Shown here piece by piece: positions 4,019 to 27,306 of a stretch of 27,972 nt of DNA (its first letter is position 1; each line of letters begins with the position of its first letter). A program made the translations under genes and the position numbers. Location of the stretch: the IMG/VR virus record IMGVR_UViG_3300020438_004722, positions 1-27,972 of that record, one strand, 5' to 3'. The notes beneath the pieces were generated by a model. The model saw only the letters and a list, made by a program, of their open reading frames with translations. It was not told where the DNA came from and did not search any database. Source of the stretch: a virus.

Positions 4019-4035
4019 TATTAACGCTTTTTAGA

Positions 4036-6333: not shown

Positions 6334-6335
6334 AT

Positions 6336-8818: not shown

Positions 8819-9474
8819 AATGATTTAGCGAAATCTAATAGGTTGTCAAAAATTTGTACGTCTTTATATTTGGTGTTAATTCCTTTGAAGTTTTCTTTCT
8901 CAGTCTTAGAACCAAATCCAGTTCTAACTAATACAGGTTTTGCACCACCATTCTGTGCCATCTTAACATCTTCTATAGTATCACCAACATAATACCCTCC
9001 CTTAATATTAACTTTATACATTTGCTCCATTCTCTGAAACATACCCGTATTTGGTTTAGCAAATGGATCTCTTGAATCATCACTTGTATTATATAAAAAT
9101 CCATCAATAGAAAAAATACCATTCTTTCCAAATTCAGTCATATAAAAGTTATTCATTATTTTATCAACTTCTTCTGCTTTTAACAACCCTTTCATTATAT
9201 TTGGTTGATCAGAAAACATCATAATCTGATACCCTTTCAACCTTAAAGTACGAATTGCTTCTAAGGATCCTGGTATCCATCTAACATCCTCATACCTTTT
9301 AATCACATTCTTCCATTCATTTATAACACCATCTCGATCAATACCAATCATTCCATTTGGAAATTCTGTTGGCCAATCTTTTGGATCATATTGAGAATAA
9401 CCAGGAGGAGGTGATCCTTCTGGCATTCCTTGTGGTACTTGTGAAGGTGGTTTTGTTGATTTAAATCTACCCAT
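8815..9474 (-). CDS. gmhB: GmhB-like heptose-1,7-bisphosphate 7-phosphatase (HAD family)
   Basis: HAD phosphatase of the GmhB/HisB type, which removes the 7-phosphate from D-glycero-D-manno-heptose-1,7-bisphosphate. It has catalytic D46 and D48 in GIDRDGVIN, WIPGSLEAI (67-75), motif II in FSDQPNI, motif III KPNTGMF (140-146), and motif IV YYVGDTIEDVKMAQNGGAK ending in VLVRTGFG. The zinc-binding cysteine/histidine loop normally found between the SNQ/SDQ motif and the KP motif has no cysteine here (YNTSDDSRDPFAKP). An extra proline-rich N-terminus of about 40 residues precedes the domain. The start at 9474 overlaps the carbamoyltransferase stop by 8 bases and has AGGAGG at good distance. HisB-type histidinol phosphatase is the main alternative; the neighbours argue for heptose. 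Confidence 0.8.
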   Translation of the reverse strand: MGRFKSTKPPSQVPQGMPEGSPPPGYSQYDPKDWPTEFPNGMIGIDRDGVINEWKNVIKRYEDVRWIPGSLEAIRTLRLKGYQIMMFSDQPNIMKGLLKAEEVDKIMNNFYMTEFGKNGIFSIDGFLYNTSDDSRDPFAKPNTGMFQRMEQMYKVNIKGGYYVGDTIEDVKMAQNGGAKPVLVRTGFGSKTEKENFKGINTKYKDVQIFDNLLDFAKSL

Positions 9475-11257
9475 CAGTTTCCTCCTCCTTATTAGGAACT
9501 TTAATCAATTTACCAAGTTCTGGCATATACATATATTCCAATTTACTATTTCTTAATGTATGAATTGCATCATCAATATTTTCTACAAGAGGTTCTCCTC
9601 CAAGATTAAAGGAAGTATTAAACAATAGTGGAGTACCAGTCAACTTATAAAACTCTTTAATAAGAGCATAGTAACTAGTATTATCCAACTTAGATACAGT
9701 CTGAATCCTACAAGTACCATCAACATGAGTAACTGCTGGTATATCTCCTATATGCTCATCACTCACCTCAAGTGCATACATCATATAAGGAGTTTCCTTT
9801 AGTCCCTTCATATTAAACCATTCTTTTGCATGTTCTTTGAGAATAGATGCAGCAAATGGACGGAACCACTCACGACCCTTAATAGTATTGACAAAATCCT
9901 TACCATTAGGATCTGTTGGATCATAGAGAATAGAACGATTACCAAGTGCTCTTGGACCACCCTCAGATCTTCCTTGAAATATAGTAACAATATTACGATC
10001 TTTAATTAACTGAGCAACTTCTGCATCAGTGGTTTCTGTTACTTCTATTTCATCTTCAAGTTTATTAACCTTTAGGTAATTATCAAGATGTTGATTATTA
10101 TACTTATAATCAGGACCAAGATAAAGACTATTTAAAGGATCCTTTTCAAAAGTAATATCATCTTTCTTTGCTAAGTGCATAGCAACATACTTAGCGGCAC
10201 CAATAGCTAGTCCACCATCATGGCATACTGGATCAATATAGATATTCAAATTGGGGAATTTTTCCTTATAGTAAGTATTAGAAATAACATTCAATCCATA
10301 TCCACCAGATATAACTATATTCTTTTCACCAGTCATATCAACTGCTTTTTCAATATAAGTACACATCATTTCTTGGGTCTCTTTCTGTATCCTCCATGCC
10401 AGATTTTTATGCACATCCCGTATTTTACTTTTATCCTTATGCCAGAAAACAACATCCATGTCATGTTCATCTTTAGTAAAGTCACCAATATTAGTTAAAT
10501 ATGGAAATCTAAAGTGATCAAGATATGCACATCTAGGATATGATGGTATAAAAATATTCTTATCCCCTCTTAATGTCTCTTCCATAAAGAGATTAGGAAT
10601 ATTATCATCATGCCTACCATAAGGAGCAAGTCCCATTGTCTTTCCTGCTTCTATAGCAGGGAATCCAAGCCATTCAGTTACTGCTTCATATGATTTAACA
10701 AGAGTTATTGCAGAGTCAGCATCAGTATCTGATGTTTCTATTCTAGGTCCATAATTCTCAGCATATCTTTTCCACACTTCGTCTATTCCATCAGGCCAAG
10801 AGCATTTATATATACTTTCGGTCTCAAAATAGTTATATTTTTTATGTTCAGGTAAATCATCAATATCAGGGAACTTTCTAGATGCACCACAACCATCAAC
10901 TACAAGAGCAGTTGCAGTATCAAATCCTGATCCATAAAAAGCAGATGCAGCATGTGCTAAATGATGCTGGTGTGCAAATTTAACCAGTTCTACATTTGGA
11001 TAAAATTTTCTAACTAATGCATGATATGATGTTTCACCAGTCCAAGGAAGTTTATGATTTTCTTGCTCACTTCCATTACCACATGTAATAAGAACATCTA
11101 TGCGATAATTCTGCATAATCCATATCATAACTTTAAAAGGATTACCATCTCTTTTCACACGAGACATCCTTTCTTCTTCCAAATACAATTCCAACTTCCC
11201 ATCAACTACAAGAGCAGCTGATCCATTATGACCTGGGTTAATTGATAATATATTCAT
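9467..11257 (-). CDS. NodU/TobZ-family O-carbamoyltransferase
   Basis: Full-length (596 aa) carbamoyltransferase of the NodU/CmcH/TobZ family. These enzymes use carbamoyl phosphate and ATP to put a carbamoyl group on a sugar hydroxyl. The N-terminal Kae1-like ASKHA domain shows SINPGHNGSAALVVDG (5-20), metal-binding HHLAH (98-102), VVDGCG (119-124) and ISGGYGLNVI. The C-terminal domain has the family signature GRSEGGPRALGNRSI (about 425-440), followed by GREWFRPFAAS and NTSFNLGGEPLVE. All expected motifs are present, so it is likely active. It overlaps the GT9 gene by ATGA and the GmhB-like gene by 8 bases, and has an AAGGAG ribosome site. It probably carbamoylates the glycan or sugar nucleotide made by this operon. 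Confidence 0.9.
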   Translation of the reverse strand: MNILSINPGHNGSAALVVDGKLELYLEEERMSRVKRDGNPFKVMIWIMQNYRIDVLITCGNGSEQENHKLPWTGETSYHALVRKFYPNVELVKFAHQHHLAHAASAFYGSGFDTATALVVDGCGASRKFPDIDDLPEHKKYNYFETESIYKCSWPDGIDEVWKRYAENYGPRIETSDTDADSAITLVKSYEAVTEWLGFPAIEAGKTMGLAPYGRHDDNIPNLFMEETLRGDKNIFIPSYPRCAYLDHFRFPYLTNIGDFTKDEHDMDVVFWHKDKSKIRDVHKNLAWRIQKETQEMMCTYIEKAVDMTGEKNIVISGGYGLNVISNTYYKEKFPNLNIYIDPVCHDGGLAIGAAKYVAMHLAKKDDITFEKDPLNSLYLGPDYKYNNQHLDNYLKVNKLEDEIEVTETTDAEVAQLIKDRNIVTIFQGRSEGGPRALGNRSILYDPTDPNGKDFVNTIKGREWFRPFAASILKEHAKEWFNMKGLKETPYMMYALEVSDEHIGDIPAVTHVDGTCRIQTVSKLDNTSYYALIKEFYKLTGTPLLFNTSFNLGGEPLVENIDDAIHTLRNSKLEYMYMPELGKLIKVPNKEEETDG

Positions 11258-12201
11258 GATACTTTCTCCTTAATGTCTTTTATAATTCTAGTATAGATAT
11301 CCGTCACCTCTTTATCATCAAACTCCATCAACCTATCATTCAATCTATCCGCAAGATGATTATCAAACCCACAAATTCTAATAGGAGAATACCTTTTCTT
11401 TATTTTCCTATCATCAATAATCTGGAACCAATCAGGATAACTAATATTCTCAGCAAAAGTTGATCCAAGTATAACTGTACCTGGAATATCAAATGCTCTT
11501 GCTATATGCTGTCCCACACTATCACATCCAATAAAATAATCACACGCTTCAATAATAGCAGACCATGATCTAAGATCTGGTATCTGAGGTTTTTCTGAGT
11601 GCGTATCTTCTGATTCTATTTCCTTTGCAAATTCACCTTCTCCCATGAATATAATATTATATTTCTGAGATAATTTTTTCACCAATTTAGTATAAACAGT
11701 AGGATCTATTGACCTACTACTATCATCAATAATATCTCCATTATCAACTCTTGCCGATCTACCAAAAGGTTGGATTAGTATTGTAATATCTTTGTTCTGC
11801 TTTGCTTTAACACCAGCAATAGCATTAGCAGCAGCTTTCTCTTCTGCCTTACAAAGATACATGTTCGGTTTACCTAAATCCGAATGATCTTCTGTTTCGT
11901 TAATAATTTTATCAAATGCTTCTGCAAGAGAACATTGCTGATTATAATATGCCCATTGCGTGTAAGGTTCTGGATGAACTATTTCAGAATCTTTAATTAC
12001 AGTCTCGAATAATCCCTTTACATCCATACTAAAGGTTCTATCCTGTAGTAATGGATTGCCAAAGAATAAAGTATCCCAACCACCTATAACGATCTTCCAA
12101 TCTTCATCAGGATGTGCCTTTGCATATTTTTCTAGTGCTGGAATTGCAGTTATAGCACGTCCTGCCCCACCATCTATGGTGAAAACCTTTCTTCGAGTCA
12201 T
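11254..12201 (-). CDS. GT9 heptosyltransferase-like glycosyltransferase
   Basis: GT-B fold protein resembling family GT9 (ADP-heptose:LPS heptosyltransferases, and the autotransporter heptosyltransferases that modify proteins). The N-terminal VFTIDGGAGRAITAIPALEKY matches the acceptor-domain start. In the C-terminal half are TILIQPFGRSAR, a WSAIIEACDYFIGCDSVG stretch and HIARAFDIPGTVILGST, the donor-binding D-S/T-G-x-x-H region with Gln in place of a usual residue before His. The ATG at 12201 (315 aa) is chosen because the homologous region starts there. An in-frame TTG at 12258 would add 19 residues that contain a late promoter octamer. It is the first gene of the sugar cassette, joined by ATGA to the carbamoyltransferase gene. 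The acceptor, host LPS or phage protein, is unknown. Confidence 0.78.
   Translation of the reverse strand: MTRRKVFTIDGGAGRAITAIPALEKYAKAHPDEDWKIVIGGWDTLFFGNPLLQDRTFSMDVKGLFETVIKDSEIVHPEPYTQWAYYNQQCSLAEAFDKIINETEDHSDLGKPNMYLCKAEEKAAANAIAGVKAKQNKDITILIQPFGRSARVDNGDIIDDSSRSIDPTVYTKLVKKLSQKYNIIFMGEGEFAKEIESEDTHSEKPQIPDLRSWSAIIEACDYFIGCDSVGQHIARAFDIPGTVILGSTFAENISYPDWFQIIDDRKIKKRYSPIRICGFDNHLADRLNDRLMEFDDKEVTDIYTRIIKDIKEKVS
11266..11271 (-). promoter_or_regulatory. Ribosome binding site of carbamoyltransferase
   Basis: AAGGAG on the minus strand, 8 bases before the ATG at 11257 and inside the end of the GT9 gene. It supports this start despite the overlap. Confidence 0.6.
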
Positions 12202-12244
12202 AAGTAAAGACCAAAATACCGTTTCATGTAATTCAATACACTGG

Positions 12245-12252
12245 TATTTATT
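12245..12252 (-). promoter_or_regulatory. Late promoter octamer AATAAATA upstream of sugar cassette
   Basis: The minus strand reads AATAAATA (fits NATAAATA, 7/8 to the T4 consensus) in the 22-80 bases between the 328-aa gene and the GT9 ATG at 12201. It could drive the whole nine-gene cassette late. If so, the TTG-initiated longer form of the GT9 gene would not be translated from this message. Confidence 0.5.
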
Positions 12253-12280
12253 ATACAATCAAAAGGTTATTTGTGCAACC

Positions 12281-13267
12281 CTATGTGGTAACCCCTACAA
12301 AAATTCCTAATCCACCATCTTTAAGTCTATCAAATATAAACGATAAACCATCATCACGATAATATTTGGATATATCAGTTGTCAAACCAACAGTAAGTGT
12401 CGCTACTCCTACATAATTACTATTTGGTGTAAGAGTAATAGATCCTGTTTGTTTATTGTCAAGTATTAAACCATCATACTGAAATCCATCAATATGATAA
12501 TTGCATTGCATTTCTTTTCCTTGATTAGCAGTTGTTATAGTAACTACAACGGTACCTCCTACCCCAACTACACTAGACCCAACACCAATAGATGATGTAA
12601 ATATAGGTTTATCTTGTTTAATATACTCACTTTCCTTGTGTATGAATTTTCCTATTGTACCTACTGAAATTGTAGCACCAATACCAGTAGCTAATGTAAT
12701 CGAAGTTGCTGCAACTCCTGTTATAGTAGAACTTTCACCATTATATGCAAAGGTATCTCCTATACTTACAGTACCTCCAGACATAGTACTGAGAGGTGAT
12801 TCAAAAATTATAGTCTTTCTAGTGTTAGGAGTATTCTTATATACAGGTGGTCCATTAAGTTCTTTGTAAGTATCTCCAATAGTTACCCAAGAAGTAGTAC
12901 CCAATCCAACAGGATCCAAATTCTTTCTCATAAACTCAAATGATTCTTCAGGAAGTTCAGACTTTCCTGGTGCTATTGGCCACTCAGAATCTAATAAATG
13001 ACTTGGAGAATTTGCTAAAGAAGTTAAATCACGAAGTTTCTGTCTATAAGTTACCCATGCAGTTTTAGAGGTACTATCTAAAGGAGAATCTACACTCTGT
13101 GTCCAATCACATTCTAATAAAAGTTGATCCCTCTGCTTCCTAAGTTGAGACATCTGTTCATTATAACTAATCTGCCACCCAGTAAGTTCATCGGCAAGAT
13201 TCTGTTGCTCATCAATTACATCTTCGGTATATGTTGTAGTACCATCTAAGTTAATGTGTATTCCCAT
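12281..13267 (-). CDS. Tail protein with tail-assembly-chaperone-like segment (328 aa)
   Basis: Residues 35-85 (LRKQRDQLLLECDWTQSVDS followed by WVTYRQKLRDLTSL) match the short Phage_tail_APC pattern found in tail fibre assembly chaperone proteins. The rest is unlike those small chaperones: residues 140-225 carry beta-rich GIGATISVGTIG-type segments, and residues 230-300 carry a VVTITTANQGKEMQ block. A glycine-rich end reads GLGIFVGVTT. It follows the two cysteine-rich genes (8-base gap) and ends 79 bases before the GT9 ATG. It may assist folding or attachment of the fibres encoded just upstream, or be a structural component itself. A GGAGGA lies only 3 bases from the ATG. Confidence 0.7.
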   Translation of the reverse strand: MGIHINLDGTTTYTEDVIDEQQNLADELTGWQISYNEQMSQLRKQRDQLLLECDWTQSVDSPLDSTSKTAWVTYRQKLRDLTSLANSPSHLLDSEWPIAPGKSELPEESFEFMRKNLDPVGLGTTSWVTIGDTYKELNGPPVYKNTPNTRKTIIFESPLSTMSGGTVSIGDTFAYNGESSTITGVAATSITLATGIGATISVGTIGKFIHKESEYIKQDKPIFTSSIGVGSSVVGVGGTVVVTITTANQGKEMQCNYHIDGFQYDGLILDNKQTGSITLTPNSNYVGVATLTVGLTTDISKYYRDDGLSFIFDRLKDGGLGIFVGVTT

Positions 13268-13275: not shown

Positions 13276-14022
13276 CTATGAAGATGTGCTTGTATCGCCA
13301 CTATGGACATGACCCCAAGGTATTCCATACAATGCCCAATTAGATTTGTATGCTTCAGTTCCACTTTGCTGAGAAGTACCACATGCTGGAGCCCAACTCT
13401 GAGGGGCACACATGCATAAAGTGTCAAATGTACAATTACAATGACCAGGCACATGACTTGCTCCTTTAGGAATCCAATCCATTGCAGCTAACCAATCATA
13501 ACTATATCCCCATTTTCTCCTCCAACCACAATACTCTGTTGCTCTCCACTTAAGGTCAAATCCTACTTGACACAGTTGACACGGATTACCACTGCTGTAC
13601 GAACAATGTCCCCATTGAAAAATGCAAAGATCAACAATTCCAGCACCATCTCCACTACTAGATTGATGCGACCACATACAAAAATCTCCTTCAGCAAAAG
13701 CGTTCCAACAACAACATGATCTTGATGGCCAACACCAGTTACACCATCCATAAAATTTGTTATTGTTACCTTGATAGGTTCCGTTATTATATCCAAAACC
13801 CCAACAATGGCACATATGCTGAGACTGACAAATCCTAAATCCATTTGCCATGTACCTAAAAGCTTGATAATCACAAGTAGGAAGAGCTAGACTATAGTTT
13901 ACGCCATAATCTTGAGTCCACTTTGCACAGTGGTGAATCCTCTTCCACATAAAATCATTACTACCACTACCACCGCTAGAGGTGGTGCCACCAGCACCTC
14001 TGGTGGTTACAAAACGTGCCAT
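13276..14022 (-). CDS. Cysteine- and tryptophan-rich protein of unknown function (248 aa)
   Basis: I do not recognise a family. The protein has about 21 cysteines (8.5%) and about 17 tryptophans (7%), with clusters such as WCNWCWPSRSCCCW, MCHCWGFGYN and HCNCTFDTLCMC. The first 25 residues are Gly/Ser/Thr-rich, and no signal peptide or membrane helix is evident. It begins with a one-base overlap (TAATG) on the stop of the 669-aa cysteine-rich gene, so the two are co-translated. The composition suggests a disulfide-knotted or metal-binding surface protein. Its position in a late fibre operon suggests virion or adhesin association. The reading frame is believable because it is long, correctly coupled to its neighbour, and oriented with the rest of the operon. 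Confidence 0.7.
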   Translation of the reverse strand: MARFVTTRGAGGTTSSGGSGSNDFMWKRIHHCAKWTQDYGVNYSLALPTCDYQAFRYMANGFRICQSQHMCHCWGFGYNNGTYQGNNNKFYGWCNWCWPSRSCCCWNAFAEGDFCMWSHQSSSGDGAGIVDLCIFQWGHCSYSSGNPCQLCQVGFDLKWRATEYCGWRRKWGYSYDWLAAMDWIPKGASHVPGHCNCTFDTLCMCAPQSWAPACGTSQQSGTEAYKSNWALYGIPWGHVHSGDTSTSS

Positions 14023-16031
14023 TAACCCTCATACCCCCATACTTGGAAATTGAATGATGTTCCTATAGTAGGTGATTCCATATTGTTGACGAATATCCTT
14101 TCATTACAATCAAGAATCACCCCAGTCCTTTCATAATTACTGAAGTTTAACTTATAATCAAGAATTCCTTCTTTACATACAGCACCATCAAATGATGTAC
14201 ACGTTCTCCATTTACATGTAGTACTTAAAAACTCAACAATACAATTAGAAGAGGAATCACAAATAACAGTTGATGAAACGTCATTTCCTGTAGGAGCAGG
14301 GTTCCAACTTATTAAATCAGTTGATACAAATGGATCAAACATTTTGGCATCACAATCATAAACACCCATTGCCCACAAACACTTCTCTACTCTATGGATA
14401 CATGTAGTACACATCATAGGAGTTATATACTTTTCCGAAGTCATCCCAACTGGGAAAGGGGCAACTTTCGTAAAGTAAGTAGTATCACAAGGCCATATAC
14501 AGTAAATAGTACCTGAATTCAACTGCCAGTCTCTATATTCATTCTCCTGTCCAGATCCAAACCAACTGAATACCCCACAATGAGCCTCATTCGCAGATCT
14601 TATCATCAAGTATGTACAACACTTTTGTGGATTCCATGAAAGATATTTGATAGAATACTCATTTGTGCAACAGTTAGTACTACCGTACTGAGGAGGTTTA
14701 ACCCACAAATCTAATATTTTCATTTCACAACTACATCTATTACACCACCAAGTACATGCGTTCATATTCCCAATAAACCACATTTGACAATCAACAAAAG
14801 TCTTATGATGTCTTACTATGGCACATTGAGTTGCTGCACCTGCGACACCACCAAGAGGATGCATCGGACAACCTTGATTATTACACATCCATCCTTCACT
14901 CAATTGATTGAAGCAGCACAAGCAACACAACCATGAATAGCAGTCAGTATATTGAGATATGCAACAACAATCAGTTCTACTCCTACACCATCTACCACAT
15001 TGACAACAGAAGCAATTACAATATCTGTAGGTTCCTCTTGCTACGTAACTTAGATATACTTCAATATCACCAGGATGATGATAACCTGGACATTTAGCAG
15101 TATAACAACCAAAGCAATTGCCACATTCTTGTCTGCAGAAATTACAACTACCATCACAACAGAAATATTTGTTAACTACTGTAGGTTGATTATTTGTTAA
15201 TGCATACCAATTAAAATAAGAACCGCATTGTTGATCGTTATACTGACAAGATATATTCATGGAAGATGGACTGGAACCTTCCCAATTGCATTTACCACAA
15301 CAGCAATAAGGATTTACCCATACTTGACCTGCTTCACATGGAGTCGAAGCATGACATCCATGAACTAACCATGCATGAGGTGGATGTGATCTACATGGTC
15401 CATACCAACATGTACCAGCCCTTGTCCATCCTAATGGGTTAGCACTTTGACATGCAATTATAGCTGAAGCATCAGAATATGGTTTTTCTTCACTCCAACA
15501 TTTTCCCGTATATTCATTATAAAATGATAGTGCAAAGTTTATCTGCTCTTGACCACCCCAGAAAGCATTTGCACACCAACTACTACAAGTGGTATCTGGA
15601 AAAGGTCCAGCACAAATACATATACAACAGTTCCAAGGATTATGCCCTGCTTCCCAATTCTTTGTTTCTGTTCCGTCTGCTGCAATAAATGACGCAATAC
15701 CTCCTGGTGAGGAACAATAACTACCACCTGGACAATTACAATCCTTTCCTAAGTAAAATGTTCCATGTACTGTAGTAAATCCTATAGGGTTAGATCCATC
15801 TGCCATTAAACCAAAATATCTTTCAAAATTACCAGATGCTATACCTAGTCTTTGTGAAAATTCAGTGGTGCCAAGACCAACAGCGACAGTCATGCAAGCA
15901 CTTCTATCAGTAGAAATTGCTTGAGCACCTAATGATACTGATAATGGCTTTCCAGTAGTATTTTGGTAGATTCCTTCACCCGAAGGGGTTGCTGGTACTA
16001 CTGTAGATAAAAATCTTCTAGCGGGTGCCAT
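14022..16031 (-). CDS. Very cysteine-rich fibre-like virion protein (669 aa)
   Basis: About 69 of 669 residues are cysteine (10%), dense from about residue 95 to 475, with runs such as NCCICIC, YCCCGKC, CDGSCNFCRQECGNCFGC, CNCFCCQCGRWC and WLCCLCC. The first 95 residues (FLSTVVPATPSGEGIYQN, LGIASGNFERYFGLMADG) and the last 150 (MFDPFVSTDLISWNP, LDYKLNFSNYERTGVIL, FNFQVWGYEG) look like an ordinary T4-like cyanophage fibre protein, so the cysteine-rich part appears embedded in a normal scaffold. There is no CxxCH heme motif or signal peptide. A strong GGAGGA lies 9 bases before the ATG, and a GATAAATA late promoter lies 48 bases upstream. Disulfide cross-linking or metal binding in the virion is inferred. 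Confidence 0.75.
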   Translation of the reverse strand: MAPARRFLSTVVPATPSGEGIYQNTTGKPLSVSLGAQAISTDRSACMTVAVGLGTTEFSQRLGIASGNFERYFGLMADGSNPIGFTTVHGTFYLGKDCNCPGGSYCSSPGGIASFIAADGTETKNWEAGHNPWNCCICICAGPFPDTTCSSWCANAFWGGQEQINFALSFYNEYTGKCWSEEKPYSDASAIIACQSANPLGWTRAGTCWYGPCRSHPPHAWLVHGCHASTPCEAGQVWVNPYCCCGKCNWEGSSPSSMNISCQYNDQQCGSYFNWYALTNNQPTVVNKYFCCDGSCNFCRQECGNCFGCYTAKCPGYHHPGDIEVYLSYVARGTYRYCNCFCCQCGRWCRSRTDCCCISQYTDCYSWLCCLCCFNQLSEGWMCNNQGCPMHPLGGVAGAATQCAIVRHHKTFVDCQMWFIGNMNACTWWCNRCSCEMKILDLWVKPPQYGSTNCCTNEYSIKYLSWNPQKCCTYLMIRSANEAHCGVFSWFGSGQENEYRDWQLNSGTIYCIWPCDTTYFTKVAPFPVGMTSEKYITPMMCTTCIHRVEKCLWAMGVYDCDAKMFDPFVSTDLISWNPAPTGNDVSSTVICDSSSNCIVEFLSTTCKWRTCTSFDGAVCKEGILDYKLNFSNYERTGVILDCNERIFVNNMESPTIGTSFNFQVWGYEG

Positions 16032-16040: not shown

Positions 16041-16046
16041 TCCTCC
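16041..16046 (-). promoter_or_regulatory. Ribosome binding site of 669-aa cysteine-rich gene
   Basis: GGAGGA on the minus strand, 9 bases before the ATG at 16031. This is a strong site for the window. Confidence 0.65.
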
Positions 16047-16089: not shown

Positions 16090-17760
16090 TTATTGTGTTC
16101 TCATTGCAGTTACTTGACCCATCATAAAGAAAGTTTGATCCAAAGATCCACCTCCACCACCACCTTCTATATTTATAGTGGCAATTCCAGCAGAAACAGT
16201 ACATGTAGAAACACCTGCTCCTCTTAAATCAAGGAAGGTTGCTCCAGTACCTACAGTTCCCCCTGCAGTAATAATTCCAACACCAGAAACTAAGTTCTGA
16301 ATGTTCTTACCATCACCATAGAAGTTACCATAATAATTAACAGGTAATGATCCCTGTGTTGCAGTTACCACTCCAGCAGTGTTTGCTGTGTTCTTAGTAA
16401 CTGTGACATGCTGCATCGTAGAGATACCAGCAATATTCATTGATGGTCCTGTAACTGCATTAGCAGCAGGTGCAGCACCTTGTACATTGGTCGTGTAAGT
16501 AGAAAGACCAAGTACGTCAACTACAAACTGATCACCATCATCAATAATTAAATCAATACCATCATTTACAACAACTTCTTCATAATTAGTGTACGCAACA
16601 TCAGTTGAGTTGGGTGCAGTAATTGTAGAGTTAGTTGTAATTTCTAGAATTTCATTTACATAATAAATTACGTCCTGTCCAGTAGTTCCTGGAACAGCAG
16701 TCATATCAATAGCAGTACCTATACCAGCACCACCACCAGCGATACTAATATCAACAGTAGTACCATTTACTCCAAATGTATTACCAACTCCAACAAAGTT
16801 AAGAGTTGTTATACCACTATTTCCGTTAATTAAAGTTCCTGCAGACGAAATTCCAATGTTAAATCCATCAGAAGCATCAGCTTTACCATCTACATGAAAA
16901 TCCTCTGATACAGAAACCTTACCACTTGAGTAATAAAATCCTTTACCAGTATTTCCCTTAAAGTATAAACCTGGAACATTTTGAGAACCTGGAAGAATTC
17001 CAAGTTGACCCTCCATATTGTCACCAGATCTAGAAAGGAATGTTCCTAAACCAGCAGAGACATTAAATGGAGATGCATCAATCCATACTCTAGCATTACC
17101 AAGACCTAGTGCAGGTTCATCATAGAAGATAAAAGTTCTACCTTCTTCAATATTAAACCAAAGGTCTCCACCGTCAGGTCCAGCAGGTGCAAGACTACTA
17201 ACACTGATGTTTCCACCACCACCTCCTCCTGAGAAGAAGATAGTACCGATACCACTACCAGCATCAAAGAATCCCGTAGAAACACCTGGTCCTTGGAAAT
17301 CTAAGAATGTAGCAGCATAACCAATAGCACCAGCAGGAGTACCAAATCCAATTGAGGATCCCTCAAATCCTGATGCTGTTAAAACACCAGTAATGTTAAC
17401 ACCACCCTGAATATCAAGGTTATTAGTAATATGATCAACAACATCAAGTCTGTTGATCGTTGCGATACCACTTATCGTGACATCCCGTGCAGTGATTTCA
17501 TCAAGAACTAAATCATCCTTGACAAATAAATCACCCCCAACATACAAATCGCCACCAGTGGTTGTGATTCCACCAGTAGCAGCGAGAGTTGTTATTCCAC
17601 TAACATAGAGATTGGTAGCCCCAATTCCACCGATTACATGAAGAGTATGTCCTACGACAGTAGTACCGATACCTACTAATTGTTTTTCAACATCAGTAAA
17701 TATTAGGTCGGTATTTACCTCCAGACCATTTTTGACTACAAAATTCTTACTTACAGCCAT
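16090..17760 (-). CDS. Repetitive fibre-like virion protein (556 aa)
   Basis: Opens MAVSKNFVVKNGLEVNTD, typical (by memory) of cyanophage virion structural proteins. The first 130 residues are short beta-repeats (GIGATNLYVSGITTL, LYVGGDLFVKDDLVLDE, VTISGIATINRLDV). The middle has three related 'ATFLDFQGPGVSTG...' type units, each ending in a glycine run (FFSGGGGGG, ISIAGGGAG, INIEGGGGGG). A block from GVGNTFGVNG to DQFVVDVLGLST resembles the C-terminal half of the 251-aa protein. No enzymatic motif is seen. A shaft-forming trimeric beta-structured fibre is the likely role. A purine-rich GGGGGAG precedes the ATG; no good late octamer is seen (best is GCTAAATA at 17797-17804), so read-through from upstream is plausible. 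Confidence 0.8.
   Translation of the reverse strand: MAVSKNFVVKNGLEVNTDLIFTDVEKQLVGIGTTVVGHTLHVIGGIGATNLYVSGITTLAATGGITTTGGDLYVGGDLFVKDDLVLDEITARDVTISGIATINRLDVVDHITNNLDIQGGVNITGVLTASGFEGSSIGFGTPAGAIGYAATFLDFQGPGVSTGFFDAGSGIGTIFFSGGGGGGNISVSSLAPAGPDGGDLWFNIEEGRTFIFYDEPALGLGNARVWIDASPFNVSAGLGTFLSRSGDNMEGQLGILPGSQNVPGLYFKGNTGKGFYYSSGKVSVSEDFHVDGKADASDGFNIGISSAGTLINGNSGITTLNFVGVGNTFGVNGTTVDISIAGGGAGIGTAIDMTAVPGTTGQDVIYYVNEILEITTNSTITAPNSTDVAYTNYEEVVVNDGIDLIIDDGDQFVVDVLGLSTYTTNVQGAAPAANAVTGPSMNIAGISTMQHVTVTKNTANTAGVVTATQGSLPVNYYGNFYGDGKNIQNLVSGVGIITAGGTVGTGATFLDLRGAGVSTCTVSAGIATINIEGGGGGGSLDQTFFMMGQVTAMRTQ
16170..16177 (-). promoter_or_regulatory. Intragenic TATAAATA, possible second late promoter
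   Basis: An exact TATAAATA on the minus strand lies within the last codons of the 556-aa gene (encoding TINIE), 139 bases upstream of the 669-aa start. AT-rich codons could give it by chance. Confidence 0.3.
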
Positions 17761-17803: not shown

Positions 17804-20800
17804 CTAAATCACTACTCTAAGTACAACTTTAGCTTGAGATACACTTCCACCCTGTGAAGCAGCAACAATAGTAACAGATCCATCAGTGTATCCACTACCT
17901 CCACCACCTCCTCCATTGGTTCCTCCGTCACCACCAGTTGCACCATTTCCTCCATTACCACCAGTTCCAGAAGCTTGTCCAGCAGTTTGAGTTATGTCAT
18001 ATCCTGCCTTATATCCTCTGTCTATGGTATTAGTAGTTAAAAGAACTTCAGTTCCATCAAATTGCCTAAATCTAGTCAATCCCATATCTTGGCAAGGAGT
18101 ATATGCTTGCTGTGCCCAATAAACACCTTTTGAGCAAGGAGTTGTTTTACCTGCCTGTTGTCCTGTAGCATTAGTATCAGGAGAAACCGCAGTCAATCCT
18201 TGATACAAAGATCCAAATGTACCAGTAGAAGATAATGCACCAGCAGTAATTGCTTGACCACCACTACCTGCACCACTACCAGTACCAGAAGCACCAGCAA
18301 CACCTACTCCACCACCATCTCCACCATCTCCAGAATTACCAGCATTACCACCTCCACCACAACATGCGATTAGAGATGACTTATGATATAGGTAAGGAGA
18401 ATTAACAGTACCAATCAATCCAGATAATGTATATTCTTCATTTTGCTTCAAGGTGAATCTAATACGAGCATAACCACCCTGACCACCAGCGTAACTTGGT
18501 GTACTAAATCCAGCACCACCATACATATCCATCTCAATATCAATATCTCTATCAGGAGAATATATGATTTGATACATATTCTGCTGACCACCACCCTGTC
18601 CAGAAACATTTATCTCAAGAGCACTACTTGCTAAGTTATGAGTAGAAATAACAGCAGCAGTACCTATACCAATTGTTTCTATGTTAATAGTTGCCTGACT
18701 AACTGTTGATACAACATTATAATTTACTTCATCAGATGTAACTGGTGTATTAGTTGCACCTGAATTAGCCACAACACATCGTACAGTATTGATTCCGACA
18801 GCATCAGACTGAATTGTTAAAGTATCAGTTGCAGTACCAGAAGCAATGTGATTAACTGTTGTAACATTAGTAGTAGGTGGAGTGCCTGGTATAACATTTC
18901 TTACAGAATATTCAACTGATCCCCATCCATCAGAAGCTGTTCCTGTAGCATACTTTGGATTATATGAACCACCAGATTTTGTTAATAAATCACTTCTATA
19001 TTGACTTACACCTGCAGAACCACCTGTTGCAGCAGAAGAACTATCATTACCAGGAGTTCCTGCAGAAGCACTTGAGTATCCACCAGCACCTCCACCACCT
19101 GCACCACCACCATCACGACCAGTAGTAGTTCCAGGAGTTGCAGGAGTACCAGGAATAACAGTAGTTGTTGTTACTTGTTCTTCTACACTTATTCCATAAT
19201 AAGATGGGTTAACCCATGTATTACCACCATCAACTTGCAAAGATCCACCAGAGTATCTAAAACTTCCAGATTGTACAGGTTCAGATTGACCTGACCATAT
19301 AGAAATACTTGCTACACTAGAGAATTGATAAACGTATGTAAATACACCTCTATAGAATCTAACATAATTTCCAGAAGGAAAACTAAATCCAGAGTATACA
19401 TTTACCCAACTCGTTGTTGTAACAACTTGATCAGGAGTTCCAGGACTACCACCTGTTGTTGTCACATTATCATCATGAGCAGCATTTGTACCAGAATAAC
19501 CTTGTATCTGAGTAATATGTGTTGTCCAAGGAGCAGTGGAATCAGGACCAGCATCTCCACCGTCTGTACCATTGATGCCATTCGATCCACCACCAGCACC
19601 GCCACCACCACCAGCAGTCGCAGCAACTACATTATCAATAAGAAGTTGAGTACAACCGCCACCGCCGCCGCCGCCTCCAGATACACCTAAACCACCAGCA
19701 TTACCACCATATCCACCATTAAGAGCACCAGTATTAGAACTACCTTGTGTACCACCACCAGATGCAGTTCCACTTGTTCCATCTGCTGCTGCTTTACCAA
19801 CAACAAATTCAAAGGTTCTTGCATTTGGAGATGATCCAGCAGATCCTGTCATATCTGCAGTATTTAAAGCAGGGAATGCTCTATTTGCACCCCAAATAAT
19901 TCTTACTGCACCTCCACCACCACTACCAACATTATTTCCACTGTTACCACCACCTGCATTTCCACCTTGACCAACAACTAAAGTATAAGTTTGACCAGGT
20001 ACTACTGTAATATTATTTTTCCAACATAATCCACCACCTTCTCCAGTTGGATCGCCAAATACTCCACCATTACCACCACCTCCACCAAATGTAGCACCAT
20101 TTTCGTTTACTGAGTTTTGTCCACCAGAACCACCCCTTGACCAGAAAGTAGCATCACCACTATTACCATAAACACCTACACCTCCACCACCTCCTGGCAA
20201 ACCAGCAGAATCACCATTATTATGTCCTTGATATGATCCACCACTAGCACCAGATCCACTACCAGTTACATATCCACTTTGAGCAAACATAGTTGCTCCA
20301 CCACCTCCAGGCATACCATTACCATTATATCCTGCAGCACCTCCACCACCTGCTCCATAAGAAGATGAATGTCCAAGACCACCAGCATAATTTGCATCTC
20401 CACCAGTGGACAAACTAGCTTGTGGTGTCTGATTATTAGAACCTCTACCATAACCACCAACCATTGCTACATTATCGGCAGGTGCATCAAATGTAGAAGC
20501 TGAACCATCAGTATATCCACCACCTCCACCAATACATACGACACAAATCTTTCCAACACCTGCAGGACATGTCCATTGAAATGTTCCTGGTGTTGCATAT
20601 AATGATTGTCCAGTAGGAACATCACCTAATACATCAAACCATACACTCATTCCTGCACCACCAACACCACCAGCATTTCCTCCCTCTGCTGCACCATTTC
20701 CTCCTGGTCCTCCAGCAAGCTCAACTCTTACATTCTCTGCTCCTGCAGGTACTGTAAATGTATTTTGTGCCTCAGTATTAGTAGATGACGCACTAAACTG

Positions 20801-21412
20801 ATAGTTAATTACTTCTTCTTGAGTAGGAGTTCCTGGTGTTACTGATATATTCTGAGTAGTGAATGATCCATCAGAAATATCAGTTCCAGCCATTTGCCAC
20901 TGATATCCCATACCAGAAGTGGAAGAATCATTTAAACTAGCATCAACTTCAAATGTAGTATTAACATTTGGAATAATTGTTGATGCAGTAGGTTGAGAGT
21001 TTACCTGAATAAACCCATACATACCAACTGTTGCTATTCCTGATGTAAATGGTTCGTTCCATGCATTAGGAGTATTTGCTGGATATGGATCAGGAACATA
21101 ATCGATAACAAGAAAATACTGCGAATTATGATCCGCAGTTGCTATACCTGATATAGTTAATGTGGTTGTACCACTTCCTACATATTTTGCACTATCACTA
21201 ATAAATCCAGTTCCTTCTTTATACCACCTATAATTGATATTACCAGTGGTAGCACCAATACCAGATTCAAATCTTGCAGTAGCAATACCAATTAGATCGA
21301 CACTACCATTATAATTTCCAAAAGCACCTGTAGGTTGTAAAGTAAATGATAAAGTTGGTCCGTTAATTTCTAGGGACGTATCTATGTCCCTATAAAAATC
21401 TAATTGTGTCAT
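17804..21412 (-). CDS. Ig-like / glycine-rich tail fibre protein (1202 aa)
   Basis: The N-terminal 200 residues hold two Ig-like segments (NINYRWYKEGTGF with LTISGIATADHNSQYFLVID; then GYQWQMAGTDIS). A third Ig-like piece (DTLTIQSDAVGINTVRCVV) lies near residue 870. Long glycine-rich stretches follow at about 220-620, 770-830 and 1000-1200. They are full of GGGG runs and include PGTFQWTCPAGVGKICVVCI and PGQTYTLVVGQGGN; GYTDGS occurs twice. The composition resembles receptor-binding glycine-rich distal fibre proteins, where polyglycine-II-like bundles form, and Ig domains commonly bind cell-surface glycans. The ATG overlaps the stop of the 1965-aa gene by 4 bases. The left part of the window encodes a paralogous glycine-rich module. 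Confidence 0.83.
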   Translation of the reverse strand: MTQLDFYRDIDTSLEINGPTLSFTLQPTGAFGNYNGSVDLIGIATARFESGIGATTGNINYRWYKEGTGFISDSAKYVGSGTTTLTISGIATADHNSQYFLVIDYVPDPYPANTPNAWNEPFTSGIATVGMYGFIQVNSQPTASTIIPNVNTTFEVDASLNDSSTSGMGYQWQMAGTDISDGSFTTQNISVTPGTPTQEEVINYQFSASSTNTEAQNTFTVPAGAENVRVELAGGPGGNGAAEGGNAGGVGGAGMSVWFDVLGDVPTGQSLYATPGTFQWTCPAGVGKICVVCIGGGGGYTDGSASTFDAPADNVAMVGGYGRGSNNQTPQASLSTGGDANYAGGLGHSSSYGAGGGGAAGYNGNGMPGGGGATMFAQSGYVTGSGSGASGGSYQGHNNGDSAGLPGGGGGVGVYGNSGDATFWSRGGSGGQNSVNENGATFGGGGGNGGVFGDPTGEGGGLCWKNNITVVPGQTYTLVVGQGGNAGGGNSGNNVGSGGGGAVRIIWGANRAFPALNTADMTGSAGSSPNARTFEFVVGKAAADGTSGTASGGGTQGSSNTGALNGGYGGNAGGLGVSGGGGGGGGCTQLLIDNVVAATAGGGGGAGGGSNGINGTDGGDAGPDSTAPWTTHITQIQGYSGTNAAHDDNVTTTGGSPGTPDQVVTTTSWVNVYSGFSFPSGNYVRFYRGVFTYVYQFSSVASISIWSGQSEPVQSGSFRYSGGSLQVDGGNTWVNPSYYGISVEEQVTTTTVIPGTPATPGTTTGRDGGGAGGGGAGGYSSASAGTPGNDSSSAATGGSAGVSQYRSDLLTKSGGSYNPKYATGTASDGWGSVEYSVRNVIPGTPPTTNVTTVNHIASGTATDTLTIQSDAVGINTVRCVVANSGATNTPVTSDEVNYNVVSTVSQATINIETIGIGTAAVISTHNLASSALEINVSGQGGGQQNMYQIIYSPDRDIDIEMDMYGGAGFSTPSYAGGQGGYARIRFTLKQNEEYTLSGLIGTVNSPYLYHKSSLIACCGGGGNAGNSGDGGDGGGVGVAGASGTGSGAGSGGQAITAGALSSTGTFGSLYQGLTAVSPDTNATGQQAGKTTPCSKGVYWAQQAYTPCQDMGLTRFRQFDGTEVLLTTNTIDRGYKAGYDITQTAGQASGTGGNGGNGATGGDGGTNGGGGGGSGYTDGSVTIVAASQGGSVSQAKVVLRVVI
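20562..20594 (-). repeat. 33-bp near-identical repeat, copy B (glycine-rich module entry)
   Basis: Matches 454-486 at 32 of 33 positions, in the same orientation. It encodes PGTFQWTCPA in the 1202-aa Ig-like/glycine-rich protein, about 20 kb away. Confidence 0.75.
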
Positions 21413-24400
21413 GCGAAGTTCTGACCTCCTATTACTCCGTATAGTCCTTCACTAACTGCATTATTACCATCCCATATCTTAAATGAATAGATATCAGATC
21501 TATCTGCTGTTACAGTAACCACAGGAGCAATTCCACCTGGCCACCTTACTGGAATCAATGCACTACCGTTAATACTAAAGTTATCTATACCAACAGTTCG
21601 ATTACCTACTCCATCTTGCTGAACCTTAATCGTAAATGATGTCGATCCAGGCGGCAAATTAGTAAGATCAAACTTGGTTACATTACTCGATGCTGTACAT
21701 ATGAAGGATTGTGCATGTGAAAGATCCACAGTAACAATACTAGCATTGATAGGTAAGTATCCTACATTTTCAGAATATGTCTTGAATGTTGCATGTCCTT
21801 GAATGTCGAGAGCACTCTTCGGTTGAGTTGTGCCGATACCGACCTTATCTCCAGTAACAACAAACTCACCAACGTTGAATCCAGTAGCAGTAATAACACC
21901 AACACTAAGTTGACCTTGTGTTCCTGTCTGCAAGTCAATCGCAGATGCAGTCAACATACCACTTACATAGACGTTCGTAGCAGTTACTAATCCAACAAAC
22001 TCAGAACTACCATTAACCTTTAGAGCAGTTCCTGCCATTCCGACAGTACCAACTTCCAAATTAGTCTTAGGTGTACTAATACCAATACCTATGAAGTCTA
22101 GGTTAGTGTTATATGTACCATCATTATCAGCAGTTCTTGCCCAACCATTGATCTGACCTATGTTTGACCATCTAATACCACTACCAGTTGATTCTATAAC
22201 TTCACCTGGAGCACCTGATGCCCCATCAATATCAGTAATATTACCACTAAATCTAGCATCAGATATAATATGAAGACCATATCCATTTGCAGTTGTTCCA
22301 ATACCTACACCATAGTCATCAATAGAAACTAATGTAGTTCCTGATCCAACTTGGAATCTGTTAAGATTAGGTGTAATTGTGCCAATAGCAACCTGATCAT
22401 AAACTCCAATATTAGAATACTTAGAGTTACTTACATTACCAAATCTTCTCCAATCATTATCAGCACTCATTATCCAACCAACATATCCACCATCAGTTGG
22501 GTCAGAGTTCCAAACAATATCACCTGGGTTACCAGATAGTGTAGGTGCTACATTAGATATGGTATGCTTTCTAGAAACAATCTGATCACCCTGAATATAA
22601 TATGACTGTGCTTCTATACCTTTATCAGATATAGATGTTAGTTTGTTGTTAAGAATAACAGGACCATTAAATTCAGATGATGCCTTATTATCAGGACCAC
22701 CCTCTACTCTAATAGAACGACTAAATGAACCTTCGGTAGCATTTGTTACGTTAATAGTAGGAAGAGCACCAATATCTTCACCTGTAATAGTTTGAATTGG
22801 GGTGTCAAAGATTTCTTCCTGACCTGTTAGTGTACTTAATTTCTTATTACCTGTGTATGAAATACCTTTGTCATTCATACCAGTGTAGAAGTTAACACCA
22901 CCAGCTTTCTTAGTTGATTGTGCTAATAGTTCCTCTTGGAAACTAATCTGTCTATCTTGCTTATCTGGGAATGCAGTTGAGTAGTTACCTGGACCATATC
23001 CAACATACTCAAATGTGTGACCAGATGCACGGATAATAGAGTGTCTTCTAAGTTCTACAGGGTTAACATCTATTCTTCTAACAACAGAGTTGATAGTGTG
23101 AGTTGATCTCTTAGATCCAAGAGCACCACGGAATACTGTTAATGGGTTTGATACCTGATTCGTAGATCCTGCATTGGTTGTAGTCTTAACCCTAAAGATC
23201 TCATCATCAACTACCAAGTAATCACCAATCTGAATATCATACTTCTTGATATTCTCAATATAAAGTTGGTCTGTAGTAGTATTAGAAACGTTATTTGAGA
23301 TTACCGTTGTAATTCCAGCATAAGTTGGAACCATTCTACCAAATAAGTTTTCATTGTCTAAAGAAATAGAACCATCATTTGCTGCATATCCTTCATGATA
23401 TACTGCAATACTTCCAGTTGTTGCAGGTGATGCATCTCCTGATCCAATATTGATAGCAAAGGAGTTAAGACTGATGTTCTCAGTAACTACGAAACTCTTA
23501 TTGTAGAAGTCATTATCAGCACCAGCAAGTCTAACTCTTGTATCAACTCTTAATCCATGATTATTTGCAGTAACTACTGTTGCAATACCAGAACCATTAT
23601 CATAAGTTAAGGTACTAACTCTAATCTCTCCACCAGTTAAGTAAAGATATGCTTTCTCAGCAATATCTGGAATAATACCAGTTGTAGAGAAGTTAGAAAT
23701 AGACGAGGCAGACGATACATTGACCGAAGTAGCAGATCCAAATCCAACTGAATCAATCCTATAAAGTTGATTGTATCCTGAATTTGCAGTAGATGTAATT
23801 CCACTAATTCTAATAACATCACCAATGTTATTATAAATGTTCTCAACTTCAACAACAGCAGCAACGTGACCTGTTGTTGTTGCAATACCAACAACCGCAA
23901 GAGTGTTACCTATACCATATGCACTACCACCATCCATGATCTTAACGGCAGTTACACCACCAGTAGGATCAACAGTAACTTTAGCAGTTGCACTCTTACC
24001 AGTTACAGATGCACCAATAGATACTAATTTAACATTATAGTAGTCTCCACCAGTTCCATCACCATATCCAGCACCACTATTACCAATACCAATACTAAGT
24101 TTAGTAATTCTATTCAATCCATGATCTACATCAGCAGTAACTTCATGAACAAATCCAGTTGTAGATTTGATATTAGAAATCCCTACACCAAAATCAACAT
24201 CACGATTATACTTATTAACAGTTTCCTTAGTAATACTACTTCTAACATCATTAACAACAACATCACCAATCAAACTTGGAGAAGCAAAAGATTTAGCTTC
24301 TGGGGGATCTGAATGAGGATTGTCCCTATTAGTTTGAGGGAATAGTTCTTTTACTGGTTGAGAGAAATCTTCATTAGTAAAAGGTGCTACCGTTGGAGCA

Positions 24401-27306
24401 TTAGAAGAGTTAAGTAGAGTTAGATAGTAAACACCATCCTGCTCTCCAGAGATATATTCTTGTACTTCTTGATTTCTAAAGACATAGTAATTATTTTCAT
24501 ACCTCTTTCTCTTAAAGTAAGGTAATGTAGTAGTTCTAGAAGAAGTATCATTAGTAAATGTACCTGGATTAGTTGTTAATCCAACATTAAATGCCTTTGA
24601 ACTACTAATACCAATAACAGTATAATTTCTGTTATATCCAGAATCTGCAAGAGCAGTTGCATTTTCAGTACTCCTAATATTTTCCAACTGAACATCAGAT
24701 CCAACTGTTAAGTTATGAGGTAATTCTGTAGATACAGTTACCGTATCAGAACCATTCCATTCAGCACCTGCAACAAATCTAAAGTTTCTTTGCTGATTAA
24801 CTGAAGATAGTGATCCACTTCCATAGTAGGTTTGAATTTCTGCATCAGTTGCTGCAGTTGTATGGTTTGATTCCTGAAGAATATAACCATCACTTGGTGG
24901 TCTTGCAGTTGCACCATCTTTAGGAATTACATACCTTGCTCTATAAAGAGTATCAACAGTGTTTCTATTATCATTCTTTCTTGTTACAAAGGTTCTTGGT
25001 GTTGCATCACCCAAATTAGCAGTACCTAACTGATTTATTTTGGTATAGAAAGATGTATTAGCAGAACCTACATTAACGTACCATTGAGAATTTCCAGTAT
25101 CAAACTGAATTGGATGTCCGATATCACCAGAGTTCTTATCAGATACTCTACTTGATACGGTTAGAATTCCACCTTTCTGGTTAATAGCAATTTCATTACC
25201 AGTAGTATCAGTCAATGCATCACTAAGAGTTTTTGCAAGTTTAATATCAGTGTCTACTGTAATACCACTACTTGCATTTTCTTTGGTTATTGCATAGTAA
25301 ATTGTATTTGGAGTAATACCATCAGGTAAATGTCCATTTTCACTAATAACACGAACAGATTCACCATTCTTAAATGTATGATTAGAAGTAAATCTAATTA
25401 CATTATTTGCAATATTATTACCAGTTAATATTCTTTCAACACCAAAGGACTTTTCAGAGGTTGACTCTGATCCTTCCATAACAATACGAGCACTATACTC
25501 ATTAACAACACCAGATTCTGAAATAAGAACTCTTAACTTGTCATCAGATCTTGCACCAATTCTATATCCTTCTCTAACATTTTCTGGTAAAATATCTTGG
25601 TTCTTCTGACCATAAAGATAAAGATTCGTTGCAATACCAACAGAAGTAGTTATTCCAACATCAACTAACTCAAATTCTACAGATGTTTCTGTGAGAGGTA
25701 GTTCTTTTGGAGGAATAATATGGGTAATGTATCCTTGGTCATCCTGTGCAAATGCGTCTTTCTTAAATCCATCAGCAGATAGAGATTTTGCACCAAAGTT
25801 AGAGTTAGAGTTTGTAAGTGAAATATCACCACCACTCTCAGTTACGAAATGTTCTGCATAACCAATAGCAAACACAGAAACTGCCTGAATAAAGGCATCA
25901 TTTATTACCTTTATATGGAAGTTTGCAAACTCTGGTTTATAAATTGCTCTTGAATTAGTACTTAATGGTTCAGAAGCAGATGATTGATAACTGTACTTAC
26001 CATCAGTAGAACTGTAAACAGTAAACGCATTATCATCCTTCTGCAATCCAATACCAGTGTATTGAGCAACAACCATAGACTTAAATCCAGTTGCCTTTGA
26101 TCCATCAGAAAGCAATCCACAAGCACCATATACAGAACGTAATGATACGTTAAAGATATAAGGAGAAGATGATGTTACAGTATCAGATGTGAGTGATAAA
26201 GTTGCTCCTGCTACACTAGGTTTCGCAGATGCAGGTGCATTTTGTACCTGGTACTTAATTTGAGTATCACTAATTTTCTCAGATACCACAAATTGACCAT
26301 TAAACTCGGATACACCAATATTAGCAATACGGAAAGGAGTATCTACATCAAGTCCAGGAACTGCTGTAGAAGTAGTAACAGTAATATTAGTATCTGGGTT
26401 TATTCCATCACCAGCAATAATTGTGGTGATTCCAACAGTTCTACCTGTAGAACCAACAATACGATATTCATCAACTTTTGGTTGTATATCCAATCCTGCA
26501 GCAGGGTAATCTGGTTCAATTGGTCTACCTGATGATTGACCATAAACTAGACCAACCTTCTCATAGTACATATCAAGGTCAGTACGATCATATTGACCAT
26601 CTACACCTTGTATAAAGGTATCATTGATATTAACCTTATTAACACCATCAGCATATTCAAATACTGTTAACTTATGGTGTGAAAAATTAGGTACAAAGCT
26701 AGCAGTTGTATAATCTCTGTATGCCTTACCGTTAGGATCTGCATCAAATATGGAAAATTGCCAAAAATAGCATTCTCCTGTAACTCTGAATATTGCTGTT
26801 CTGTCTATATTTGCATCATATGGGTTTGGAACATATTTTGGTCTTATTTTCGTCTTTCTAAGGTCTAAACCAACAAGAGAAGTACCACGAGGAACTATAA
26901 CTCCACCATATACACTGTTTAATTTGTAAAGTTCATTATCTGGAGAAGTTAAGTCAAAATTTGATGTTAGGTCAAATGGAGGTAAATTATCAGAAGTCGC
27001 ACCATTCCTAAGTCTAAATTTATTACTACCAAGTCTTGAATCGGGAATAAACCCAGGTCTATTATCTATAGCATGATCGCCTGGATATAATAAAATCGTC
27101 GTTTTACCAAATCTATCATTATCCAATCCTTTCTGATAAGAAAATCTAGATGCCTCTATCAAAGCACGTTGAATAGTCTTAAAAGGTCGAGTTAACGAAT
27201 TACCCTTATTCTCAACACTATCTGTTGCATCTAAATCGTTTGGATTAACATAGAGAATCGTTCCCCTTGCCGATTTAAGAAAATTATCTAATCTGGAAAG
27301 ACCCAT
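21409..27306 (-). CDS. Large virion structural protein with beta-helix-like N-terminus (1965 aa)
   Basis: Largest gene of the window. Residues 16-60 (TILYVNPNDLDATDSVEN, then RPFKTIQRALIEAS) and KTTILLYPGDHAID match the DUF1565/pectate-lyase-like start of parallel beta-helix proteins. A very similar large protein is, as I recall, conserved in T4-like cyanophage genomes. The middle consists of many beta-rich repeats without catalytic motifs. From about residue 1690 a collagen-like DGASGAPGEVIEST leads into fibre repeats (FIGIGISTPKTNLEVG, VTGDKVGIGTTQPKSALDIQ). The last 100 residues (IPVRWPGGIAPVV, then DIYSFKIWDG, ending IGGQNFA) resemble the C-terminus of the 258-aa protein. A GATAAATA late octamer lies 28 bases upstream. 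Baseplate/tail fibre location is inferred. Confidence 0.88.
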   Translation of the reverse strand: MGLSRLDNFLKSARGTILYVNPNDLDATDSVENKGNSLTRPFKTIQRALIEASRFSYQKGLDNDRFGKTTILLYPGDHAIDNRPGFIPDSRLGSNKFRLRNGATSDNLPPFDLTSNFDLTSPDNELYKLNSVYGGVIVPRGTSLVGLDLRKTKIRPKYVPNPYDANIDRTAIFRVTGECYFWQFSIFDADPNGKAYRDYTTASFVPNFSHHKLTVFEYADGVNKVNINDTFIQGVDGQYDRTDLDMYYEKVGLVYGQSSGRPIEPDYPAAGLDIQPKVDEYRIVGSTGRTVGITTIIAGDGINPDTNITVTTSTAVPGLDVDTPFRIANIGVSEFNGQFVVSEKISDTQIKYQVQNAPASAKPSVAGATLSLTSDTVTSSSPYIFNVSLRSVYGACGLLSDGSKATGFKSMVVAQYTGIGLQKDDNAFTVYSSTDGKYSYQSSASEPLSTNSRAIYKPEFANFHIKVINDAFIQAVSVFAIGYAEHFVTESGGDISLTNSNSNFGAKSLSADGFKKDAFAQDDQGYITHIIPPKELPLTETSVEFELVDVGITTSVGIATNLYLYGQKNQDILPENVREGYRIGARSDDKLRVLISESGVVNEYSARIVMEGSESTSEKSFGVERILTGNNIANNVIRFTSNHTFKNGESVRVISENGHLPDGITPNTIYYAITKENASSGITVDTDIKLAKTLSDALTDTTGNEIAINQKGGILTVSSRVSDKNSGDIGHPIQFDTGNSQWYVNVGSANTSFYTKINQLGTANLGDATPRTFVTRKNDNRNTVDTLYRARYVIPKDGATARPPSDGYILQESNHTTAATDAEIQTYYGSGSLSSVNQQRNFRFVAGAEWNGSDTVTVSTELPHNLTVGSDVQLENIRSTENATALADSGYNRNYTVIGISSSKAFNVGLTTNPGTFTNDTSSRTTTLPYFKRKRYENNYYVFRNQEVQEYISGEQDGVYYLTLLNSSNAPTVAPFTNEDFSQPVKELFPQTNRDNPHSDPPEAKSFASPSLIGDVVVNDVRSSITKETVNKYNRDVDFGVGISNIKSTTGFVHEVTADVDHGLNRITKLSIGIGNSGAGYGDGTGGDYYNVKLVSIGASVTGKSATAKVTVDPTGGVTAVKIMDGGSAYGIGNTLAVVGIATTTGHVAAVVEVENIYNNIGDVIRISGITSTANSGYNQLYRIDSVGFGSATSVNVSSASSISNFSTTGIIPDIAEKAYLYLTGGEIRVSTLTYDNGSGIATVVTANNHGLRVDTRVRLAGADNDFYNKSFVVTENISLNSFAINIGSGDASPATTGSIAVYHEGYAANDGSISLDNENLFGRMVPTYAGITTVISNNVSNTTTDQLYIENIKKYDIQIGDYLVVDDEIFRVKTTTNAGSTNQVSNPLTVFRGALGSKRSTHTINSVVRRIDVNPVELRRHSIIRASGHTFEYVGYGPGNYSTAFPDKQDRQISFQEELLAQSTKKAGGVNFYTGMNDKGISYTGNKKLSTLTGQEEIFDTPIQTITGEDIGALPTINVTNATEGSFSRSIRVEGGPDNKASSEFNGPVILNNKLTSISDKGIEAQSYYIQGDQIVSRKHTISNVAPTLSGNPGDIVWNSDPTDGGYVGWIMSADNDWRRFGNVSNSKYSNIGVYDQVAIGTITPNLNRFQVGSGTTLVSIDDYGVGIGTTANGYGLHIISDARFSGNITDIDGASGAPGEVIESTGSGIRWSNIGQINGWARTADNDGTYNTNLDFIGIGISTPKTNLEVGTVGMAGTALKVNGSSEFVGLVTATNVYVSGMLTASAIDLQTGTQGQLSVGVITATGFNVGEFVVTGDKVGIGTTQPKSALDIQGHATFKTYSENVGYLPINASIVTVDLSHAQSFICTASSNVTKFDLTNLPPGSTSFTIKVQQDGVGNRTVGIDNFSINGSALIPVRWPGGIAPVVTVTADRSDIYSFKIWDGNNAVSEGLYGVIGGQNFA

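Follow-up and report, generated by a model that had tools for sequence, protein, structure and literature searches.

The window analysed here, a stretch of 27,972 nucleotides of viral DNA from an IMG/VR record, bears on its minus strand two adjacent genes whose products are extremely rich in cysteine. The larger gene (14022..16031) encodes a protein of 669 amino acids with 69 cysteines (10.3%) and 26 tryptophans, in which there are 11 CC, 10 CxC and two CCC motifs; its smaller partner (13276..14022) specifies 248 amino acids with 21 cysteines (8.5%) and 17 tryptophans. These exact counts bear out the first-pass annotation, which had reported about 69 and 21 cysteines, in clusters, together with many tryptophans and with neighbours almost free of cysteine: the flanking proteins have one cysteine in 556 residues and two in 328. 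Across the 18 remaining open reading frames of the window there are 55 cysteines in 8,123 residues (0.68%), and at that background the chance of encountering 69 in 669 is about 5e-57, and of 21 in 248 about 1e-16. Alternative frames of the large gene yield 9 and 31 cysteines, with 38 and 74 stops, and shuffling of its DNA gives 24 ± 5 cysteines, so the excess is a property of the coding frame.

That both frames are translated, as first supposed, is indicated by a Shine-Dalgarno sequence GGAGGA (16041..16046, minus strand) preceding the ATG of the large gene; by a TAATG overlap, in which the two genes share one base; and by purifying selection in homologues. In comparison with L003, the nearest relative with full sequence, dN/dS is 0.26/0.84 and 0.23/0.82 for the two genes, or about 0.3 each; the large protein retains 65 of its 69 cysteines at 66% identity, cysteine being its best-conserved residue, and the small protein 20 of 21 at 70% identity. 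At 88% identity, the large protein of L026 (NZHF01000005.1) retains 68 of the 69, the remaining site falling on an ambiguous base. The L026 contig sits in a Gammaproteobacteria MAG (MED656), and is probably a mis-binned phage contig. Both genes are real and under constraint. An origin of the cysteines in neutral or mutational bias, or in an artefact of assembly or reading frame, is scarcely credible in the face of this selection, of the pre-eminent conservation of cysteine in the large protein, and of an excess confined to the coding frame. Artefact was rejected on the dN/dS values, the frame test and the independent records, since the pair is carried both by independent contigs and by a single-particle genome. 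No homology was detected when the small and large proteins were compared, and a hydrophobic signal or membrane segment is absent from both, which leaves unsupported the earlier suggestion that they are assembled in an oxidising compartment.

Genomic setting

The pair lies within a series of minus-strand fibre genes. Upstream of it are genes for the 556-residue protein, which is of fibre or baseplate type (16090..17760); for a fibre-region protein of 1202 residues and 10 cysteines (17804..21412; phrog_24848, unknown function); and for a conserved cyanomyophage tail-fibre protein of 1965 residues and three cysteines (21409..27306; phrog_529). Downstream is the gene for the 328-residue protein, which resembles a tail-fibre assembly chaperone (12281..13267; PF16778, 2.1e-15), and this order is kept in L002 and L003. 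The adjoining fibre and baseplate-type proteins of the window contain 0–1.1% cysteine, the pair alone being cysteine-rich. For the 1965-residue protein there are matches in 460 phage records, almost all of them from cyanophages of Synechococcus or Prochlorococcus, the best named isolate being Synechococcus phage Bellamy (62.5%). Judged from this gene content, the window is the tail-fibre region of a T4-like (Kyanoviridae-type) cyanophage, in agreement with the context first proposed for the pair. In T4, Mu and Alteromonas phage V22 the gene that immediately follows a receptor-binding fibre gene is one for a chaperone (PMC7289586). We read the pair as tail-fibre proteins because of the gene neighbourhood, and as a receptor-binding tip because of the chaperone-like gene downstream.

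Next to the fibre genes, positions 4603-12258 of the window house what appears, from the translations alone, to be a sugar or cell-envelope cluster, with carbamoyltransferase-, heptose- and epimerase-like open reading frames; it is kept in most of the related contigs.

Relatives and likely host

A tblastn search of 50,697 phage records retrieved one relative only, Marine virus AG-345-O18; further loci, designated by L-numbers, come from scans of IMG/VR. About ten contigs from uncultured marine phages carry the cysteine-rich pair, at 7–13.5% cysteine, and this family size is a lower bound because pattern-based scans miss distant members. The large protein has 46–111 cysteines (7.2–12.2%) in L003 and L005–L012, 73 in AG-345-O18, and 33 among 674 residues in L017; the small partners range from 8.5 to 13.5%. 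A cysteine-rich partner adjoins the large gene in the window and in L002, L003, L005–L008, L010, L011, L017 and L026. Profile searches of Pfam and PHROGs assigned neither protein to a family at E <= 1, and nothing was found in the open-access literature on cysteine-rich cyanophage fibres.

AG-345 is a plate of extracellular particles from a 180 m sample of the South Pacific gyre, and AG-341 is a Prochlorococcus sort gate from the same sample (PMC6122165). The isolates closest to AG-345-O18 in psbA are P-SSM5 and P-SSM2 (91%), phages of Prochlorococcus NATL strains, and its psbA region is 98.5% identical over 2 kb to that of a virus from AG-341-P01; on these two grounds Prochlorococcus is likely to be its host. 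The terminus of the L010 contig gave a partial psbA match, below the cut-off, and none was seen in the window itself. For the window phage, Prochlorococcus is a putative host.

Scaffold domain and inserted core

The two ends of the large protein were originally described as those of an ordinary cyanophage fibre, with a cysteine-dense core grafted between them. The grafting holds good; the description of the ends can be sharpened, in that they form one small two-part domain that also occurs alone. Its N-terminal half comprises residues 1-55 (15867..16031) and its C-terminal half residues 620-669 (14025..14174), ending in QVWGYEG, while the cysteine-dense insert occupies about residues 56-619 (14175..15866). 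A stand-alone protein of 109 residues (L012:4366-4695) matches the large family at the initial 60 residues (z 4–15) and the final 50 (z 10–18), whereas z in the middle stays between about -1 and 1. AlphaFold gave the large protein of the window a mean pLDDT of only 42.5, with confidence mainly at the two ends (64–85 in blocks to residue 50), and in a cysteine-poor homologue likewise modelled only the scaffold with confidence. It is on the L012 match and the confidence at the ends that the ends are taken as a single domain and the cysteine-dense part as an insert. The scaffold copy in L012 adjoins a cysteine-rich protein of 763 residues, and the usual cysteine-rich small partner is missing there.

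In the model, part of the insert looks like beta blades of three to four strands. Its best PDB matches by Foldseek were mainly propeller enzymes (Asp-box, GH43-like), at E >= 0.04 and from a low-confidence model; profile searches of the PDB returned no match. Both models matched BFVD entry A0A6J5NWH6, an uncharacterised 507-residue protein of an uncultured Caudovirales phage, at E 2e-10 and 1e-20, with low TM-scores because the insert is poorly modelled.

Cysteine-poor homologues and cysteine spacing

The same scaffold is present in proteins of 532-538 residues from L014, L015 and L016 that contain only three or four cysteines (0.6–0.7%), and whose alignment to the cysteine-rich family extends across roughly the last 210 residues. 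A search for additional cysteine-poor members recovered these three only. The gene neighbours in L016 are of podovirus type, so the scaffold family seems to span phage types. In the cysteine-poor phages the small partner is replaced by a different, glycine-rich protein with only its first residues in common. The existence of nearly cysteine-free relatives of the large protein marks cysteine enrichment as a separate, selected trait. In reliably aligned columns cysteine faces mostly T, S, G, A, K or N, and very rarely one of V, I, L and F, and this preference for polar or small positions suggests, at the level of sequence, that the cysteines lie at the surface.

Within the large family the spacings CC (z 4.3), CxC (z 4.2) and C-x4-C (z 3.1) are over-represented. 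Among the cysteine-rich members the CxxC formed by C541/C544 is near-invariant, and C343/C345 and C243/C245 are invariant. Between close relatives the cysteine totals are nearly constant, and several losses are offset nearby (261/262, 214/215, 626/629), a matched pattern of gain and loss that rests on few sites. Together with the near-complete retention of cysteine, the spacing and the partly matched changes would fit local disulphides formed after release of the particle. Such pairing is not strict, since single unpaired gains also occur (site 332 in L006/L007; site 164 of the small protein in the window and L026); these gains, and the odd totals of both window proteins (69 and 21), rule out strict disulphide parity.

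The conserved C541/C544, C343/C345 and C243/C245 pairs, and the excess of CxC in the large family, also speak for metal binding, in the form of Fe-S, Fe, Cu or Zn thiolates that might confer stability or allow docking on host metal-uptake receptors. The docking version would be a cysteine form of the 'Ferrojan horse' idea, in which unusual chemistry at the fibre tip is discussed for iron-poor oceans; the T4 fibre (gp37) is known to hold iron through HxH motifs, and the same has been proposed for marine phages (PMC11705849). However, histidine accounts for only 1.7%, and the large protein has no HxH at all, the small protein a single one. The C-x2-C spacing, which metal sites also employ, is only mildly over-represented in the large protein (z 2.5), less so than CC or CxC, and is not enriched in the small protein. 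The richness in tryptophan and tyrosine is likewise unlike metallothioneins, which are short, cysteine-rich proteins with almost no aromatic residues, whereas the large protein has its 26 tryptophans in a chain of 669. We consider metal binding rather unlikely, and place it second among the explanations because the large protein is without HxH and its enrichment in CxxC is modest.

A further proposal is that the cysteines remain mostly as free thiols or serve as a redox switch, the phage being attached, or a change in its fibre triggered, by exchange between thiols and disulphides at the host surface. This appears improbable to us: free thiols on a particle in oxygenated seawater should become oxidised, and there is no known receptor. 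It would nevertheless accord with the placing of cysteine at polar or small positions and with the toleration of unpaired gains, and there is a precedent of sorts in phage Milano, whose contraction needs partial reduction of disulphides (PMC10811340).

Cysteine enrichment in other fibres of related phages

Cysteine is normally very scarce in phage fibres. Beside the cysteine-rich pair, L010 encodes three RCC1-repeat fibres (L010:3-1160, 1182-2978 and 2984-4717) with 17–22 cysteines each (2.9–5.7%), compared with two or three (0.5–0.8%) in RCC1 proteins of AG-345-E08. RCC1-like propeller fibres, as in S-SRM01, BUCT-ZZ01 and AG-345-E08, consist of fibre-type repeats; they do not match the window proteins in sequence, and are cysteine-poor in the relatives measured, in contrast to the enriched versions of L010. 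A glycine-rich fibre with 5% cysteine is encoded in L012. A fibre of 1087 residues in AG-345-O18 (L002:17453-20716), without a match in Pfam, has most of its 26 cysteines in the C-terminal part, at up to 16 per 100 residues. AG-345-L05, from the same plate as AG-345-O18 and lacking any match to the cysteine-rich pair, encodes a 2491-residue repeat fibre with 75 cysteines (L029, MH319754.1 100001-149201:4093-11568); its GxxNxxIGxxAG repeats look, by eye, like a YadA head. The remaining structural proteins of the related phages with cysteine-rich fibres are cysteine-poor. No comparable fibre reading frame was seen in AG-345-E15, E08, F15 and P14 or AG-341-P01, or in the fibre regions of Bellamy and S-SM2, most of these being partial. 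Of the two reading frames flagged there, one runs antisense in S-SM2 and the other, of 145 residues in E08, is not of fibre type.

This enrichment of further fibres in the same phages bears on the idea that the pair is a secreted or intracellular factor, foreign to the virion, that lies within the fibre cassette by chance. The failure of either protein to match any family leaves room for such a factor, but the pair stands between fibre genes and a fibre chaperone in diverged lineages, and its scaffold is common to proteins in the fibre regions of other phages; we hold this idea to be distinctly improbable. It is also conceivable, though unlikely, that cysteine decoration is general among cyanophages of the deep photic zone, a link to depth that rests on one sample: several unrelated fibre folds would have independently gained dense surface thiols, which would serve jointly as a redox- or metal-dependent adhesive or trigger at the host surface, beyond any role as staples.

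Proposed function and significance

The reading we favour, with a probability of about one half, is that the two proteins are distal receptor-binding components of the tail fibre, made in reduced form and stapled by disulphides after lysis. The large protein would consist of the small two-part domain, serving for attachment, and a long, probably beta-sheet-rich insert, with the small protein as its partner tip or cap. Both would be synthesised reduced in the host cytoplasm, their folding aided by the downstream fibre chaperone, and once the virion reached oxygenated seawater their numerous surface cysteines would pair locally as disulphides, to leave a durable, covalently stapled host-binding head. 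Virion location, receptor binding and disulphides are thus all parts of a model deduced from gene content and sequence. A search for a phage-encoded thiol oxidase of the Erv1/ALR type gave no match, and the control likewise matched nowhere.

The nearest precedents are the Agrobacterium phages Milano and 7-7-1, which have contractile tails, raised cysteine content and extensive virion disulphides (PMC10811340, PMC12796354); in Milano the tailspike and short fibre are disulphide-linked (PMC10811340). Their cysteines are spread over capsid, sheath or baseplate, whereas in the window the enrichment is confined to the two putative fibre proteins, with neighbouring structural proteins cysteine-poor. 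The original view that such a cysteine content is very unusual in a phage tail protein therefore stands, with the qualification that disulphide-rich virions were already known, at far fewer cysteines: 2.1% in the structural proteins of Milano (PMC10811340) and 2.58% in the capsid proteins of 7-7-1 (PMC12796354), against 8.5–10.3% for the pair. Among Kyanoviridae isolates, Bellamy and S-SM2 share the 1965-residue type of fibre (59–63% identity over the part searched) and the fibre genes that follow it, but their cassettes contain neither a homologue of the pair nor any other cysteine-rich fibre reading frame.

The libraries searched contain no record of such a conserved family with 7–13.5% cysteine, several times the density of the described disulphide-rich virions. 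Since there are cysteine-poor homologues of the scaffold, direct tests are possible of how the cysteines affect stability, redox response, metal content and host binding. The phages that carry this family likely have as host one of the most abundant photosynthetic organisms of the sea, and the finding is relevant to the question whether marine virus particles contain metals bound by thiols.
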